DNA from: Candidatus Angelobacter sp. Gp1-AA117
GTDB taxonomy: Bacteria; Acidobacteriota; Terriglobia; Terriglobales; Acidobacteriaceae
Length of the DNA stretch: 64,000 bases
Assembly: GCA_003223515.1 (NCBI GenBank)
Contig: QHVI01000047.1
Location: forward strand, 1-64,000
Direction of reading: 5' to 3'
This document shows positions 4,267 through 61,475 of this stretch, in pieces. The notes beneath the pieces were generated by a model that did not search any database, was not told the origin of the DNA, and saw nothing but the letters and a program-made list of their open reading frames with translations. How positions within the stretch are numbered: the stretch's first letter is position 1; every line of letters starts with the position of its first letter. Made by a program: the position numbers and the translations under genes.

Positions 4267-4357
4267 ACCGCAGAGATCGCAGAGAAGAATAAGGAAAAGA
4301 AGCATGAAGAGAATTTATCAATAGAATATTTTTCAGCTCCTCTGCGCTCTCTGCGGT
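4267..4357. repeat. CTCTGCG-family inverted repeat
   Basis: Two 18-bp arms, ACCGCAGAGATCGCAGAG (4267-4284) and CTCTGCGCTCTCTGCGGT (4340-4357), are inverted copies with one mismatch, separated by 55 bp of A-rich sequence. They belong to the dispersed family also seen near 19543, 19730, 26145, 33284, 44486 and others. The element lies between the GT39 gene and nrnA. Confidence 0.75.
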
Positions 4358-5880: not shown

Positions 5881-6177
5881 TCAGGTTTCCAGGTAGTCCA
5901 AAAATGAGTCCACTACTTCAGCTCCAACATTATTGGCCAGCTTCACGGCTGTGCGCTCTACATTCTGCATCAGGCCTTGAAGGTAATCACGGGAACCGGA
6001 AATGCTCACGATGCCAATCGTGGCACGCTGCCATAAGTCAGTCACTTCGATTTCGGCTACCGAGATGTTGAAGGTGTTGCGCAGGCGGTCTTTGACGCTG
6101 CGGACGACCTGGCGCTTGTCTTTCAGGGAATGGGCTGACTCGATCCGCAGTTCCAGTGTGAGATATGCAATCGGCAT
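5881..6177 (-). CDS. DUF503 (YlxP-like) protein
   Basis: A 98-residue DUF503 protein. The N-terminus MPIAYLTLELRIESAHSLKD, then KDRLRNTFNISVAEIE, is typical of the family. Members of this small alpha/beta family usually sit between infB and rbfA, as here, and are linked by context to ribosome assembly; the biochemical role is unknown. The 141-bp gap to infB carries a large inverted repeat, unusual within this operon. Confidence 0.9.
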   Translation of the reverse strand: MPIAYLTLELRIESAHSLKDKRQVVRSVKDRLRNTFNISVAEIEVTDLWQRATIGIVSISGSRDYLQGLMQNVERTAVKLANNVGAEVVDSFLDYLET

Positions 6178-6197: not shown

Positions 6198-6314
6198 ATT
6201 GGGTAAATGGGTAATTTGGTAAATGGGTAAATGAAAACCGGGTAACGATTGGCTATTCATGGAACCCACAAATTAGCTCAATTTACCCAATTACCAAATT
6301 ACCCATTTACTCAT
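6198..6314. repeat. GGGTAAAT-family inverted repeat between infB and DUF503 gene
   Basis: A 36-bp arm (6198-6233) built from GGGTAAATGGGTAATTTGG-type units is followed 44 bp later by a near-exact inverted copy (6278-6314). Folded, it would give a long AT-rich stem of roughly 33 bp. Related arms occur at 41829-41908 and 55043-55080. It begins 5 bp beyond the infB stop codon, so it lies in the operon transcript. Confidence 0.8.
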
Positions 6315-6318
6315 TTCT

Positions 6319-9300
6319 TTAGGCGACTCCGATTTCGGCGGCGACCTTCACGATCACAAACGCTTCGATTACATCGCCTTTCTTTATATCATTGAAGTTG
6401 GCAATGGCGATGCCGCACTCCATGCCGTTGCGGACTTCGCTGGCGTCATCCTTAAAGCGTTTGAGTGAGCTGATCTTGCCTTTGTACACCTGCACGTTAT
6501 CGCGCACTAGGCGCACGTCGGAATCACGTTTGATCTGGCCATCAAGCACGTAGCAACCGGCAACCGTGCCCACCTTGGGAACTTTGAAGGTGTCGCGGAC
6601 TTCAGCGCGTCCCAGGTAAGTTTCCTTGATGATCGGCTCAAGCAGTCCGGCCATGGCTTTCTTGATCTCATCCTGTAGCTCATAAATGATCGAGTGCAGG
6701 CGGATATCAACTTTTTCCTGCTCGGCCAGTTCCTGGGCTTTGCGCTCGGGCCGCACATTGAATCCGATGATCACCGCGTTGGAAGCCGAAGCCAGCAGCA
6801 CATCGTTTTCGTTAATAGCGCCCACACCGGTATGCAGGATTTTGATCTTGACTTTGGCCGTGGAGAGCTTGGCCAGGGTATCTGCCAATACTTCGGCGGA
6901 GCCCTGCACATCAGTCTTGAGAATGATGGGCAGCTCTTTCACGCCGGCAGCCTTGATCTGTTCCGCAAAACCTTCCAGCGAAAGTTTTGTGCTCTTGGCC
7001 AGGGTGGCTTCGCGGGCCTTCTGCTCGCGGAATTCCGAGACCTGGCGGGCCTTTTCGCGTTCGGCCACAACCAGCAACTGGTCTCCGGCCTGCGGCAGTC
7101 CTTCCAGTCCCAGCACTTCAACCGGGGTGGATGGCGGAGCTTCTTCCACCACCTGCCCGCGATCGTCAAACATGGCGCGAACTTTGCCGAAGGTGTTGCC
7201 CAGGATGAAGTTATCGCCAATGTGCAGCGTGCCGTTTTGCACGAGAACAGTGGCTACCGAGCCGCGTCCGCGGTCAATCTTGGCTTCCACCACAGTGCCA
7301 CTGGCTGGACGGTCAGGATTGGCCTTAAGTTCACCCAGATCAGCCACCAGGCAGATCATCTCCATCAGCAGGTTGAGGTTGGTGCGCTCCTTGGCCGAGA
7401 CATCCACGAAAACCGTAGTGCCGCCCCAGTCTTCCGGCATGAGACCCCGGTCGGCGAGTTGCTTCTTCACGCGGTCCGGCAGAGCGTCAGGCTTATCGAT
7501 CTTGTTGACAGCCACAATAATCGGCACCTTGGCTGCCTTGGCGTGGTCCATTGCTTCCAGGGTTTGCGGCATCACGCCGTCATCAGCGGCGACAACCAGG
7601 ACGACGATATCCGTGACCTTGGCTCCACGCGCACGCATGCGGGTAAAAGCTTCGTGACCAGGGGTGTCGAGGAAAACGATCTGGCGGCCGTAGGCAGGTG
7701 AATCTTCCTTAGTGATCTTCACCTTATACGCGCCAATGTGCTGAGTGATGCCACCGGCCTCGCCTCCGGCAACATTGGTTTCACGAATCGCGTCCAGCAA
7801 TGATGTCTTTCCGTGATCAACGTGGCCCATGATCGTGACTACCGGTGGACGCGTTACGGCTAACGTCGTGACAGCTTCCTGCGAAGCGCCCGTCATTTGC
7901 GCCATTTCCTTGGCGGCCTGATCTTCAAAGCTGATGACTTCCACGTCAGCGCCGAAATGCCGGGCCATGTCTTTGGCCAGTTCAAAGTCCAGGGTCTGGT
8001 TCACAGTGGCCATTGCACCCTTCATCAGCAGGCGGGCAATCAGATCTTTGGCGCGAATGCCGAGCTTTTCTGCCAAGTCTTTTACGCTTATGCCTTCCGT
8101 GATCGTAAGGGTGCGTGTAATCGGCAGCGGCTCGTTCGACAGCGACATGCGTGGCGGTGGAACAAAGCCCTTCATGGGGCCTTCTTTAGGCCCTTGTGCG
8201 TAACGCTGCCCTGGACGCCGTGAAGGTGCGCCTGCACGGCCTGTAGGCTTGCTCGGCCCCTGGGGCGGTCCGCCCGGCCCTACGCCCATTCCGGGGCGTG
8301 GCGGGTATCCCATACGGTTGGTGCTGGTGGGGTGCGGACCACGGCGCTGCTCGCCGGGGCGACCACCGAACTGCGGACGACTACTGGGGCCACCGCCGCC
8401 CGGACCACCCTGGCTGGGGCGCGGGCGCTGGAAGATTGGCTGCCCGCGAACCACGCCACCTTGCGGACGTCCGCCGGGACCACCCTGCATGGGGCGGCCA
8501 CCCATAGGACGGCCACCCTGGCCCTGCATGGGGCGGGTGTGCTGCTGTCCCTGCGGTGGCATTGGTGGACGCTGCGGCTGTACCGGAGCCTGATAAACAG
8601 GACGCGGACCAGTTTGCGGCGTAATCATACGGCGCTGCGGAACGATAGGCTGTTGCGAAGGTGGCTTGACCACTACCACAGGCGGCTGCTCTGCCGGAGA
8701 AGCTGTATTGGCGGCAGGCGGCGGAGTTGCAGGCGCTTTTGGCGGCGCAACTGAAGGCATTGAGGAAGGAGCAGTATTCACTGGAACCTGAGGTTGTTGC
8801 TGTGGCGGTGTAACCACCACGGCTGGAGGATTCGCGGGTTTCTCGGCAGCCGCCGGCGGCTGGGCCGGAGCTGCGGGTTTTTCCGCAGGTGGAGTTACCA
8901 CGGCAATCTTTTCAACCGGAGGCGTAACTCTGGCCACAGGCATCTGCGGTTTGATGAACCGGGGCTGGTACTCCTGCTGTGCAGGAGGAGGAACCGTGGG
9001 TGGAGCCGGCGGTTGCTGCGGTGGCTTGGGAGCAGCGCTGGGCGGAGCAGTCGCGACCGGCGCGGTCGGGCGCGGCTGCACGGGCGGATGCTGCTGTTGC
9101 TCTTTTTCCTTGAGCAGTCTCAGCACGTCACCGGGCTTGGAGATTTTGGAGAGATCGATCTTAGGCTTGATCTCGCCGGACGCGGACCTCTCCCTTTGAG
9201 CCGCAGAGCCGGATTTCATTGCAAAATGCTTCCTGACTTTTTCCGCTTCATCAGACTCGATAGAACTTGAATGAGTTTTCTTTTCGGTAATGCCGCATTC

Positions 9301-9372
9301 CTGCAAGACATCGAGAATGGCTTTGCTCTTTACCTCAAGCTCTCTGGCCAGATCATTAATTCGAATTTTCAT
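6319..9372 (-). CDS. infB: Translation initiation factor IF-2
   Basis: A 1017-residue IF-2, the GTPase that delivers initiator tRNA to the 30S subunit. It begins with an IF2_N helical domain (1-55), then a very long Pro/Gln/Gly-rich linker (about 90-410), a second IF2_N-like domain (about 411-450), the GTPase domain with G1 GHVDHGKT near 514, G3 DTPGHEAF and G4 NKID, then domains II, III and IV. The length is at the high end because of the linker, a pattern also known in myxobacteria and actinobacteria. A GGAGG lies about 13 nt before the ATG. Confidence 0.97.
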
Positions 9373-19488: not shown

Positions 19489-19766
19489 ACCTCCTAGAAA
19501 CATTTGCCGCAGAGCGGCGGAGCCGCAACCAAAAACCCTCTTAACCGCAGAGGCCGCAGAGGAAGAAAAAGTGATTGATGTGTACTTAATTGGTCATGGT
19601 CTTGCCCCCTCAGGAATTCTCGGGCGCCAATATTTGGATTTGCGAGGGGCAAGAGCCGCATTAATCTGCACAGGAAAACAAGAATTTCGGATATAGCAAT
19701 GCAGAGAGCGCAGAGGATTTAATTCTATTCCTCTGCGGACTCTGCGATCTCTGCGGTTAAAGATTT
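19489..19766. repeat. CTCTGCG-family inverted repeats between genes
   Basis: A 278-bp non-coding gap. TTAACCGCAGAGGCCGCAGA (19541-19560) and the inverted triple unit CCTCTGCGGACTCTGCGATC... (19730-19760) face each other about 170 bp apart; a further partial copy lies at 19701-19715. The right arm abuts the nifJ stop codon. Nothing else was seen. Confidence 0.65.
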
Positions 19767-41828: not shown

Positions 41829-41908
41829 ATTGGGTAAATGGGTAATTTGGTAAGTGGGTAATTGAGATTCAAAAAGCAAATTCCCAATTTACCAAATTAC
41901 CCATTTTT
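41829..41908. repeat. GGGTAAAT-family inverted repeat
   Basis: Arm 1 (41829-41861, GGGTAAATGGGTAATTTGG units) and its inverted copy (41881-41908) are separated by about 20 bp. It lies exactly between the stops of the convergent M1-like and permease genes and could work as a bidirectional terminator-like hairpin. Confidence 0.75.
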
Positions 41909-41924
41909 CGTTCGTGGCTTACTC

Positions 41925-43166
41925 TTATTCGTATCGTAGTGCCTCAATGGGATCCAACCGTGCCGCGCGAATGGCTGGCAGCATTCCACTCACAATCCCC
42001 ACCAGCGTCAGAATGCCTGTTGAAACCATAAGATTCGTCGGCGAGATAATCAGCCGGATGTCTCCTGCATCGGCGTTCTTAGCTACCGCGCTGTAGAGCG
42101 TCAGCGAGCCTGCGCCCCACGAGATGAGATAGGCCAGCGCAATTCCCAGCAATCCCCCCAGAAAGGTAATCGCCATTGCTTCAGCCAGGAACTGAAACAG
42201 GATGTCGCGCCTGCGTGCGCCCAGGGCTTTCTCAATCCCAATTTCGCGGGTGCGCTGGGTCACGGAGACCAGCATGATGTTCATCAAACCAATGCCGCCA
42301 ATGCCCAGTGTGAGCGTGCCGATGAAGGCCAGCAGCACCTGAAGTCCGAGCGTGATGATCTCAAACGTGTTTACCTGCTTCATGGCGTTGAAGATAAAGA
42401 TGGCGCGGCGGTCGGATGGCTGGAAGCCGTGCAGGGCAGCCAGCGTATCGCGAACCTCGCCCTCGATCTTCTCGTATTGCATGCTCTCGTAATCCATCCA
42501 GATGCCATCCAGGTAGCGCGTATCTTTGAGATCGCTCATGGTGCTGAACGGGACATAGATCACGCGATTGATGTTGTCATCGCCCTCCTGCATCTTGGGC
42601 TGAAGCACGCCAATCACCTGGAAGCTCAGGCCGTTCACGCGCACGGAGTCTCCGATCGCGTATTGTCCGGAAAAGAGTTTTTCTTTCGCTTCTGAGCCGA
42701 TCACGGCCACGCGGGCGCGCTGCATCTCGTCGCCCAGGTTGTAGAAGCGTCCATCGGCAACTTTGAGTGCGCGGATGGATTGCCCATGCGAATTCAGGCC
42801 ATCCACCGGCATCTCAAAAGAGCGGTTCTCGTGCTGCACATTGGCCTGCAGTGAGGCTTCCGGACTGATATGCCGCACCAGCGGAACAAAGGTGCTGATG
42901 CGGTCCACGTCATCAAGAGTGAAACGTACCTCAGTACCGGCTTTTGATCCTCCGGCCTGCAGAGACGTGCGCCCGGGAAAGACGCCCATGATCTGCATGC
43001 CGAAGTTGGAAAAAATATTGCGGACAGCGCGCCCGAACCCGGCGCCATAGGCAAGCAGCAGCACCACGGTAGCGATGCCCCAGGCCATTCCCAGCATAGT
43101 GAGGGCGGTGCGCCGCCGGTTGTGGCGCATGGCCTGAGATGCCTGTCCTAATAAATCGCGAACCAT
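41925..43166 (-). CDS. FtsX/MacB-type ABC transporter permease
   Basis: A 413-residue permease: TM1 at about 22-42, a large periplasmic MacB_PCD domain (about 45-245), then three TM helices with the FtsX signature (GIGGIGLMNIMLVSVTQRTREIG near 290-312). Such permeases work with an ATPase in mechanotransmission or efflux. It starts 2 nt after the stop of the upstream permease, forming a two-permease operon. No ATPase gene or membrane-fusion protein is adjacent. Confidence 0.88.
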   Translation of the reverse strand: MVRDLLGQASQAMRHNRRRTALTMLGMAWGIATVVLLLAYGAGFGRAVRNIFSNFGMQIMGVFPGRTSLQAGGSKAGTEVRFTLDDVDRISTFVPLVRHISPEASLQANVQHENRSFEMPVDGLNSHGQSIRALKVADGRFYNLGDEMQRARVAVIGSEAKEKLFSGQYAIGDSVRVNGLSFQVIGVLQPKMQEGDDNINRVIYVPFSTMSDLKDTRYLDGIWMDYESMQYEKIEGEVRDTLAALHGFQPSDRRAIFIFNAMKQVNTFEIITLGLQVLLAFIGTLTLGIGGIGLMNIMLVSVTQRTREIGIEKALGARRRDILFQFLAEAMAITFLGGLLGIALAYLISWGAGSLTLYSAVAKNADAGDIRLIISPTNLMVSTGILTLVGIVSGMLPAIRAARLDPIEALRYE

Positions 43167-43168
43167 AT

Positions 43169-44341
43169 CTACTCTTTTCTCAATGCCTCCACCGGCGTGA
43201 GCATCGCGGCCTTGCGCGCAGGATAGAGCCCGGCAACAATCCCCGCGAGCGAAAGCGAAATCACGGCCACAGCGGCCGATGTAGGCACCAGGCGCGGCGT
43301 GTCAAAACCCGGTGGCGACGGTAATGTGGCCAGGGCGCCCATCAATCCTGCGGCAGCGGCAATTCCCAGCCCGCCGCTGATCAGCGTGAGAAAGGCGCCT
43401 TCAAAGAAAAACTGCATCAGGATATTGCGGTTGGTCGCGCCCAGGGCCTTCATCAGCCCGATCTCGCGGGTGCGCTCGCTCACCGAAACCAGCATGATGT
43501 TGATGATTCCAATAGCTCCGAGCGAAAGCGTGACCATGCCCACCCCGCCCAGGAACATGTCCATGGCTGTAAAGATCTTGCCGACCATCTCATGCGTCTG
43601 GATCGTGTCCCACTCCTCGAAAGCTTCCTTGTTGCGGAAGTCGAAATCATGATTGCGGGCGATGATCCGGTGAACCTCATCGATGGCCTCAGCATGTTTG
43701 TCGCGGCTCACCGGCTGGCAGTTCATGAAAGAGATATCGTCAGCGGTCTCGGCATTCTTGATCGGAAAGTAGGTGCGCATCACGCTGTAAGGCACATAAA
43801 CGCGGAAATTGGTTGAGTTATTTTCATTGCGGCCCACAGTGTCCAGCACTCCCACGATCTCAAACCGCACTCCATTGAGTAGAATCGTGCTGCCCACGGC
43901 CGGACGCCCAGGGAACAGATTGCGGGACATCTCGTGGCCGAGTACCGCTACGTTCCTGCGCTGCTGGTCATCCAGATCGTTGAGCCAGCGCCCCTGCCCC
44001 ATGGGCAGATAACGAATCTGGTTGAAGACCGGAGCAATGCCGGTCACCTGGCCGTTGCTGGTGGCAAAGTCGCTCACGGCGCGGATATCACCTCTTTGCA
44101 GCACTGGAGAGACATTGCGCACCAGTTTGGCCTCTTTGCGGACATCAAGATAATCCTGGTAGGTGAGCGCGTACTGCTTCATGCCCTGGCGCTGGCCCTC
44201 GACGGCTGGAATACGGCCGGGAAAGATGAACAGGATGTCCTGGCCCATGGTTTCCAGTTGACGCTGGTTGCCGGAGCGAAAACCCTCGCCCAGCCCCACC
44301 AGCAGCAGCAAAGACCCGACACCCCAGGCAATGCCGAACAT
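43169..44341 (-). CDS. FtsX/MacB-type ABC transporter permease, start region damaged
   Basis: 390 residues from the first in-frame ATG, same architecture as its neighbour (MacB_PCD domain, GAIGIINIMLVSVSERTREIG). The conserved N-terminus before this ATG is still encoded in frame to about 44401 (GIFGQTLRTLWAHKLRSFLT), but no ATG, GTG or TTG precedes it before the stop at 44447-44449. Two ATGs at 44409 and 44415 are out of frame by what one missing base would explain. Either a frameshift, a sequencing error or a rare start codon. Confidence 0.8.
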   Translation of the reverse strand: MFGIAWGVGSLLLLVGLGEGFRSGNQRQLETMGQDILFIFPGRIPAVEGQRQGMKQYALTYQDYLDVRKEAKLVRNVSPVLQRGDIRAVSDFATSNGQVTGIAPVFNQIRYLPMGQGRWLNDLDDQQRRNVAVLGHEMSRNLFPGRPAVGSTILLNGVRFEIVGVLDTVGRNENNSTNFRVYVPYSVMRTYFPIKNAETADDISFMNCQPVSRDKHAEAIDEVHRIIARNHDFDFRNKEAFEEWDTIQTHEMVGKIFTAMDMFLGGVGMVTLSLGAIGIINIMLVSVSERTREIGLMKALGATNRNILMQFFFEGAFLTLISGGLGIAAAAGLMGALATLPSPPGFDTPRLVPTSAAVAVISLSLAGIVAGLYPARKAAMLTPVEALRKE

Positions 44342-55042: not shown

Positions 55043-55080
55043 GAATGGGTAAATGAGTAAATTGGTAAATGGGTAAATTG
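55043..55080. repeat. GGGTAAAT-family repeat, single arm
   Basis: GAATGGGTAAATGAGTAAAT and then TGGTAAATGGGTAAATTG, related to the arms at 6198 and 41829. No inverted partner was found here. It is 4 bp past the aspS stop. Confidence 0.7.
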
Positions 55081-55159
55081 AACCAAGCTCTACCTGCGAT
55101 TGGCATTCAGGCCCGCGTTACAGCACGCCGATAAAAAAGGGCCTCATCTCCGGTAAGAT

Positions 55160-57341: not shown

Positions 57342-57712
57342 GCTCTTACCTCCCGCCGTGAATTATTGATTAGGATGAGAGACTACAAACAGATGTTGTC
57401 GATCCTGTTTCTGAAATCGCGAGCGCAGCGAGGGATTACTATTGTCAAATTGATGTACACGGAGCAGAACAGCTCAATCGTGCAATTCGGAATAGACGAG
57501 CATCTCTGGCCAGCAGTACCTCACGTTTACAATGCATGTATCCATGCAGTCTGTCTTCCTGAGAGGCATGTCTTTTTGCAGTTGCAACGTGGTCAGTATT
57601 CAACACGATACCCTCCACGCCTGTCATTCTGAACGCAGCGCCGCCATGTTCTTTTCCGCAATGGATTCTAGAGCGCGAAGCGAAGAACCCCGAGAATATT
57701 TCCTCTGCCATA

Positions 57713-57763
57713 CAGCATCAGGGAGTTCTCACAATGCATTTTTGTTGAAATTCCCTGATGCTG
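57713..57763. repeat. 12-bp inverted repeat with 27-nt loop
   Basis: CAGCATCAGGGA (57713-57724) and TCCCTGATGCTG (57752-57763) are perfect reverse complements. No T-tract follows; it is probably a small palindromic repeat rather than a terminator. Confidence 0.6.
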
Positions 57764-57882
57764 CATGATGGTTCCGAATCACTTCGGGGTCTTTCGACTG
57801 CGCTCTCCCTCCTGCGTCGGTCGAGCTTGCTCAAGATGACAGCGGGACAAGTTTTGGATCTCGTACGTCGATCGAATACAAA

Positions 57883-61383: not shown

Positions 61384-61475
61384 CCGCAAACGACGCTAAG
61401 GGCGCAAAGGTAGCGAAAACGGCCCACTTGGAAGTTCAGCTGCCTTGTTACCTTTGCGTCCGTTGCGCCCTTTGT
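61384..61475. repeat. Inverted GCGCAAAGGTAGCG-type repeat
   Basis: CGCTAAGGGCGCAAAGGTAG (about 61395-61414) faces TTACCTTTGCGTCCGTTGCG (61448-61467), an imperfect inverted pair of the CTTTGCG-type repeat. It fills the gap between the DUF1800 and HD-GYP genes. Confidence 0.6.

Follow-up and report, generated by a model that had tools for sequence, protein, structure and literature searches.

An AT-rich hairpin downstream of infB in Candidatus Angelobacter consists of two facing copies of a dispersed short-period repeat

Introduction

The STRR heptamer repeats of cyanobacteria are short tandem units located in intergenic DNA. Repeats built on the heptamers GGGAATC and GGGGA(C/T)T occur in Xanthomonas and Nostoc, and the available portion of the report on them gives their function as unknown (PMC4692102). 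As that portion describes them, the Xanthomonas elements are intergenic and mostly composed of four short units, in which some positions are fixed and others variable; they lie mostly less than 50 bp from a stop codon when on the coding strand, or from a start codon when on the non-coding strand (PMC4692102). They form 70 and 75 convergent pairs in two genomes, 83% of them occupy the same place in Xcc and Xac, and only a few pairs are described from Nostoc; a G-quadruplex has been proposed for the GGGAATC repeats (excerpt of PMC4692102). Judging by our analysis and by this excerpt, the Xanthomonas heptamer repeats appear to be the closest known kind to the elements reported here, being alike in layout, placement, and unknown function.

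Here, we describe a hairpin located between infB and a DUF503 gene in Candidatus Angelobacter sp. Gp1-AA117 and the repeat family from which it is built. The starting material, called the window throughout, was the stretch of 64,000 nucleotides at positions 1-64,000 of contig QHVI01000047.1 (GCA_003223515.1), in which a sequence-only reading had pointed out the hairpin. A literature search with the literal letters of the repeat returned unrelated papers only.

Results

The infB hairpin is built from two copies of a dispersed 38-nt repeat that face each other, and an 8-nt internal period runs through both arms (Table 1). With its edges taken from the family consensus, the element at 6198-6315 lies entirely within the gap between the stop codon of the gene that we take to be infB (IF-2) and the DUF503 start. 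A repeat search returned inverted arms of 33 nt (6200-6232 and 6281-6313) that are 94% complementary and 48 nt apart, and RNA folding gave z scores of -8.8 on the + strand and -9.0 on the infB sense strand, with 0 of 200 shuffles equally stable. The sequence and the folding thus bear out the earlier description of a long, stable AT-rich hairpin with a stem of about 33 bp. Because two arms in one gap face each other, a transcript running through them can, on the evidence of folding, form a long stem.

The window holds further copies. Allowing two mismatches or fewer, GGTAAATGGGTAA matched it 16 times as compared to 0.66 expected from shuffles; no Rfam match in the window reached the gathering score. 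The sequence-only reading had listed related elements at 41829-41908 and 55043-55080. The former is a true facing pair, which extends to 41913 and folds with z of -5.7 and -6.3. The latter, after aspS, does carry an arm of the family but not a hairpin, as it is a single arm at 55044-55081 (z -0.7). Facing pairs of other short-period families are given in Table 1. An imperfect 26-nt inverted repeat with a 7-nt loop (CATACAGCATCAGGGAGTTCTCACAA) at 57709-57767 does not belong to the 38-nt family. At 41925-44341, the window carries two adjacent genes, presumably ABC-permease-like, the first of which has 89 related matches in its own genome.

Table 1. Coordinates of the repeat elements and flanking genes (positions refer to the window unless a locus is named)
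Feature	Position	Strand	Description	Basis
Whole element	6198..6315	-	pair of facing 38-nt arms with an unrelated loop in the infB/DUF503 gap	sequence, repeat search, consensus edges, folding
infB-proximal arm	6278..6315	-	3 nt past the infB stop; G-rich strand is the infB sense strand	sequence, consensus edges
Arm on the DUF503 start side	6198..6235	+	G-rich strand on +	sequence, consensus edges
infB (IF-2), presumed	6319..9372	-	stop codon at 6319-6321	ORF, relatives; name from the sequence-only reading
DUF503 gene	5881..6177	-	start at 6177	ORF; matched in 9/9 genus genomes; name from the sequence-only reading
Second facing pair	41829..41913	.	between two convergent stops	sequence, repeat search, folding
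Single arm	55044..55081	+	5 nt past the aspS stop, without hairpin	sequence, folding; gene name from the sequence-only reading
Facing pair, other short-period family	4268..4356	.	CGCAGAG unit	repeat search
Facing CGCAGAG arms	19541..19760	.	extra + arm inside; convergent gap	repeat search
Facing pair	61385..61474	.	CGCAAAGG-type family	repeat search
Single arms within a longer CAGCACTCAGCCCCTGAACTGATTG...TGCCTTGAACCAAGC repeat	L197 ~19490, L205 ~8340, L206 ~11520, L231 ~8750			

To follow the family through the 6.48 Mb genome, we searched with GGGTAAATGGGTAAWTTGGTAA and found 195 sites at two mismatches or fewer as compared to 4 for the reversed control. At three mismatches or fewer the counts were 321 and 70, the control being weak at this setting because the arm reads almost the same in reverse. 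Eight relatives of the same genus contain 0-20 sites each (two mismatches or fewer); altogether, the pattern matched in 11 of 61 genomes searched, including its own, and outside the genus in just 3 of 52. An exact scan of named genomes with GGTAAWTKGGTAAWTKGGTAA returned at least 109 stretches. Among the 80 loci listed, most are from Chloroflexi, some from Acidobacteria, and a few from other phyla; two-arm clusters at these loci in other organisms are facing in 43 cases, back to back in 1, and on the same strand in 10, and of 18 single arms no more than 60 nt from a gene, 12 point away and 6 toward it.

The anatomy of the family was derived from 80 stretches and the window (1.62 Mb of the 6.48 Mb genome), with genes called by our own simple caller instead of a standard one. 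Family density in this sample is biased upward because some stretches were picked for pattern hits. We found 106 elements, comprising 42 pairs and 64 single arms (33 minus and 31 plus). Their 148 arms compare with 1 arm in one Markov-1 simulation of 0.40 Mb of intergenic sequence; this single simulation replaced reversed-sequence controls, which gave many hits as the arm is nearly its own mirror image. Alignment of 127 of the 148 arms yielded a 38-nt consensus, A.TGGGTAAATGGGTAATTTGGTAAATGGGTAAATGAA, with sharp edges, and the flanks and loops outside it carry almost zero information. Conservation is column-specific, strong in the GGTAA core and weak at the sixth letter of the unit. The arm has tracts of two to three Gs, one tract of the consensus being GG. 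By a loose window count, 120 of the 148 arms span four to five units; the unit is 8 nt long here and 7 nt in the pairs of other genera.

Loops measure 14-46 nt in 31 of the 42 pairs and are unrelated to each other: for the 18 of 42 that were long enough, a 10-mer was common to 3 of 153 comparisons. A search for decayed partners of the single arms detected a hidden partner within 500 nt in just 1 of 64. Some single arms in divergent gaps are enclosed by a longer repeat, CAGCACTCAGCCCCTGAACTGATTG-like before and TGCCTTGAACCAAGC-like after the arm (Table 1), and therefore the 38-mer is not always the whole unit.

Elements of the family are tied to gene ends. Three of the 106 fall within called genes and 2 at the ends of stretches. 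Convergent gaps contain 30 of 101 elements, more than their 17.5% share of intergenic bases (p 0.002), and divergent gaps 13 of 101 for a share of 22.8% (p 0.017). Of the 88 elements in tandem and convergent gaps, 52 have a stop codon no more than 30 nt away, as compared to 32.0 +/- 3.1 expected for random placement in the same gaps. The earlier suggestion of a dispersed family associated with stop codons was upheld.

Orientation follows a rule as well. All 42 pairs in the 1.62 Mb face each other, and near genes the arms mostly have a fixed strand, pointing outward: of 43 single arms at most 60 nt from a gene, 40 point away and 3 toward it, and those farther out are split 9:9, without direction bias. 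Over all single arms with two called neighbors, 49 point away and 12 toward.

The 38-nt family (A) belongs to a broader class of repeats with a short period (7-9 nt), which gather in intergenic DNA by gene ends. For single arms within 60 nt of a gene, the ratio of away to toward was 38:15 in family B (CGCAGAGGA; 30:32 farther away), 38:19 in family C (CGCAAAGGA; 32:32 farther away), 17:0 in family D (GGTGATCK), 24:2 in family F (AGCTTTTGGCTCTTGG), 10:0 in family I (CAGCACT), 8:2 in family E (GATAAACGCT), and 1:1 in family H (CACGGAGA), families B and C partly overlapping. According to the p values calculated for A, B, C, D, F, and I, the outward bias near genes is common to family A and five others. 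Neighboring arms within 400 nt in the eight families are facing in 88 cases, back to back in none, and on the same strand in 31, a count in which B and C partly overlap. Families without runs of three Gs, such as CGCAGAGGA and AGCTTTTGGCTCTTGG, carry the near-gene bias in this genome, and therefore quadruplexes are not required for the layout. We dropped stop codons in all frames as a cause of orientation, since family A alone has a recurring TAA in its G-strand. Different families can also be nested within a single gap, as around 5,100-5,320 of contig C197, which fits repeated layering.

Next, we compared the infB 3' end among relatives. Within the genus, related GGTAATTG pairs are present in G001, G002, G007, and G008 (whose loop contains two N); by eye, G003 has an imperfect GGTAATTG-related pair, G006 has one arm before its contig ends 69 nt past the stop, and reading of G004 revealed no element. 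G005 had no infB match. In other genera, the site carries TCTCAGTTC arms (G012), CAGTCGC arms (G011), GTCGTTG arms (G014), a weaker GTAATTTG pair that was a near miss in the strict test described below (G013), or one-strand arrays (G009 and G046). GTTCTCA, the unit at the G012 site, occurs in 21 overlapping matches in G012 and in 119 in G014; for GTCGTTG, the unit at the G014 site, the counts are 86 in G014 and 41 in G011. Neither unit matches in the genome of the window (G000). Thus, hairpins of the same build and unrelated letters stand at infB in some related genera, which indicates that place and layout can recur with the sequence swapped.

A strict automated test was applied to 24 of the 27 infB loci, two pieces of G010 and G042 being left out. 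It accepted elements in 4 of 7 relatives of the same genus. Among the family members from other genera it accepted 3 of 7, with unrelated 7-nt units, as compared to a background of 6/227 (p 6e-4 for this comparison, relatedness not corrected); this infB end was the one gene end tested and was picked because G000 carries the element there. The sample behind this background consists of 279 gene ends (6 hits) taken from G011, G012, and G014, the infB end of G011 included; 50 nt or more were free at 227. The same test accepted 22 of 1022 ends in G000 (778 free) and 0 of 127 in G007 (102 free). At infB it was negative in G003, G004, G006, G009, G013, G015, and G016, and in all 9 order-level genomes.

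The infB gene is adjacent to DUF503 in G000; in G008 (L270, L339), a 700-nt stretch resembling an open frame stands between the infB hairpin and DUF503; and in seven other genomes of the genus (L268, L269, L271-L275), the infB C-terminus was not found within 1.5 kb upstream of DUF503.

At the aspS 3' end, we identified by eye a GGTAATTG pair in G002, CACAGAGG-type pairs in G001 and G003, and one such arm in G007, and none in G005, G006, or G008. In G004 (L308), a long palindrome, GTGGCACAGGCACTCCTGCCTGTG...CACAGGCAGGAGTGCCTGTGCCAC, occupies the place where other relatives have short-period arms. The element at 41829 was absent in 7 of 7 relatives read. From coordinates alone (two mismatches or fewer), arms lie 8-40 nt past a frame that we take to be cysS in G004 and about 97-118 nt past it in G003, and none was detected near the presumed purB or nadA in genomes of the same genus.

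The sequence-only reading had proposed that the hairpin attenuates, stabilizes, or processes the mRNA. In 39 of the 42 pairs, the arms differ at 6.62 of 32 positions as compared to 6.60 for permuted partners (p 0.55), and non-consensus bases common to both arms number 26 for 25.2 expected. Arms in pairs are not better kept than single arms (27.7 and 27.1 of 32; p 0.70). Runs of four or more Ts past the stem occur in 3 of 48 sense exits, which is no excess over the background of 4.9%, although T as such is commoner there (4.3 vs 3.0 of 12 positions). Without pair covariation, better conservation of paired arms, or an excess of T-runs, the stem looks like a consequence of two facing copies. Against the proposal, the arms do not covary, single arms without a partner obey the near-gene rule, and the T-run is missing. 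Speaking for some role, most relatives of the same genus keep an element at the infB end and some other genera have an analogous hairpin; the 41829 element is absent in all seven relatives and the aspS element is kept only partly. Concerted evolution of the infB arms within species was not supported, likeness within and between species being not clearly different. Fold energy alone proved unspecific as a marker, with G015 reaching z -5.1 after infB without short-period arms.

Discussion

Our results are consistent with an explanation in which dispersed short-period arms accumulated at gene ends and the infB stem arose as a by-product, a reading for which we see about an even chance. Copies would have been laid down repeatedly by a putative factor acting in trans; gene ends, above all the sites just past stop codons, would be preferred or tolerated targets, and older families would be replaced by newer ones at the same sites. 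The reading of 20 Y1 transposase loci revealed no mobilizing gene for the 38-nt family. If pairs inserted as one unit, loops without homology would be odd, yet pairs are far commoner than independent arms predict. As a by-product, the stem in the infB mRNA may still shield or mark an RNA 3' end, while not being maintained by base-pair selection.

Selection for a hairpin at this place could equally account for the recurrence at infB. An RNA hairpin selected to block 3' exonucleases, or to fix where the mRNA is processed or attenuated between infB and DUF503, would keep its place and shape while its sequence drifts and is replaced, and we consider it a minority option of appreciable weight. It agrees with the stable fold (z -8.8/-9.0), with occupation of the infB site in 4 of 7 readable relatives of the genus (by eye, imperfectly in G003 and by one arm in G006), with the hairpins of unrelated units in 3 of the 7 genomes tested from other genera, and with the enrichment of T after the stem. 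However, the arms of 39 pairs show no covariation, 64 of the 106 elements are single arms, and the infB arms within the genus are not clearly more alike within species than between them; furthermore, the strict test was negative in seven named relatives and all 9 order-level genomes, and the recurrence was examined at one gene end picked for its element. A lasting role at infB is possible, resting on that one gene end. A stem past stop codons that is in excess in convergent gaps (30 of 101 elements vs 17.5%; p 0.002) would also suit an intrinsic transcription terminator, but T-runs at background level in 3 of 48 sense exits and an AT-rich stem with long loops, which is atypical, make this highly improbable. 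A terminator scan had no match at the site; its loops were limited to 3-8 nt, so that it could not have found the infB-DUF503 stem.

Arms might instead be sites for a putative sequence-specific DNA- or RNA-binding protein that insulates genes. If each arm were read singly, position and orientation rules would follow without covariation, and the column-specific conservation, with its strong GGTAA core and weak sixth letter, the orientation relative to gene edges, and the position kept at infB point in this direction. Yet several families coexist in one genome, each of which would need its own reader, and the pair at 41829 is missing from all 7 relatives read, which leaves binding sites distinctly unlikely. 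Still less probable is a REPIN-type element moved by a REP-associated tyrosine transposase (RAYT or TIRYT), a reading that was already disfavored. Inverted doublets and singlets do occupy extragenic space, and a Y1 transposase matched in 18 of 21 genomes. Nevertheless, an arm array is present at only 1 of 20 Y1 loci, in G007, where it lies about 1.2 kb beyond the gene; terminal repeats at 12 of the 20 include several GC-rich palindromes and not one short-period arm (for G000, 1 of 5 matches was read). The consensus lacks a GTAG or CGTC tag, the arm is not self-palindromic, no loop is common to the pairs, and paired arms are conserved like single ones (27.7 vs 27.1 of 32, p 0.70). Linkage of the 38-nt family to RAYT genes was therefore not supported by the 20 loci. 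The G-quadruplex suggested for the GGGAATC repeats (available portion of PMC4692102) would account for an arm with G2-3 tracts and a layout like that in Xanthomonas. As families without runs of three Gs share the near-gene bias, and GTTCTCA and GTCGTTG pairs occupy the infB end in other genera, a quadruplex does not set the layout, and we give this explanation hardly any credence.

What is new here is a layout without need of G-runs and a family swapped at one gene end. We tentatively raise a wider proposition, unlikely as we judge it at present: gene ends in several phyla may carry outward short-period arms that persist in place and orientation longer than in sequence, so that a lineage swaps its family and the layout stays. 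If true, it would imply that some machinery writes arms at the ends of genes, or else that any periodic arm can serve a boundary function. Unrelated units with the same near-gene placement in one genome separate layout from sequence and make the question of origin testable. Moreover, if copies mark gene boundaries, they could mislead the annotation of terminators and small RNAs in environmental genomes.

As excerpts of two reports describe them (PMC3116915, PMC3733652), REPIN/REP-RAYT and TIRtron systems resemble the present elements in their inverted doublets and singlets, extragenic location, many copies, and downstream and convergent bias. Set against REPIN/REP-RAYT in the same excerpts, our elements lack the GTAG/CGTC tag, a palindromic arm, RAYT linkage, a fixed spacer, and compensatory changes, and their pairs are not better conserved than singles (PMC3116915, PMC3733652). 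Separately from the 38-nt family, the Y1 transposase genes of L169, L171, L174, L175, and L176 lie between GC-rich palindromic terminal repeats, and these palindromes recall the TIRtrons of Acidobacteria, as far as the excerpt shows them (PMC3733652). The TAACTGA direct repeats of Beggiatoaceae and others, in the portion of their report available, are likewise short-unit intergenic arrays with stops in all frames of one orientation and a patchy distribution across phyla; in contrast, those of the main genome lie forward and mostly just upstream of start codons, with one inverted repeat in 170 sets (PMC4679880).

Compared with the Xanthomonas repeats, as far as the excerpt describes these, convergent pairs are the rule here (42 of 42), and 40 of 43 singles within 60 nt of a gene edge are directed away from it; four G3 tracts, however, are not found, the consensus arm having one GG tract (PMC4692102). 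The present repeats further differ from that description in their 8-nt AT-rich unit, in several coexisting families, some without G-runs, in unrelated families at one gene end across genera, and in the negative result for arm covariation (PMC4692102).
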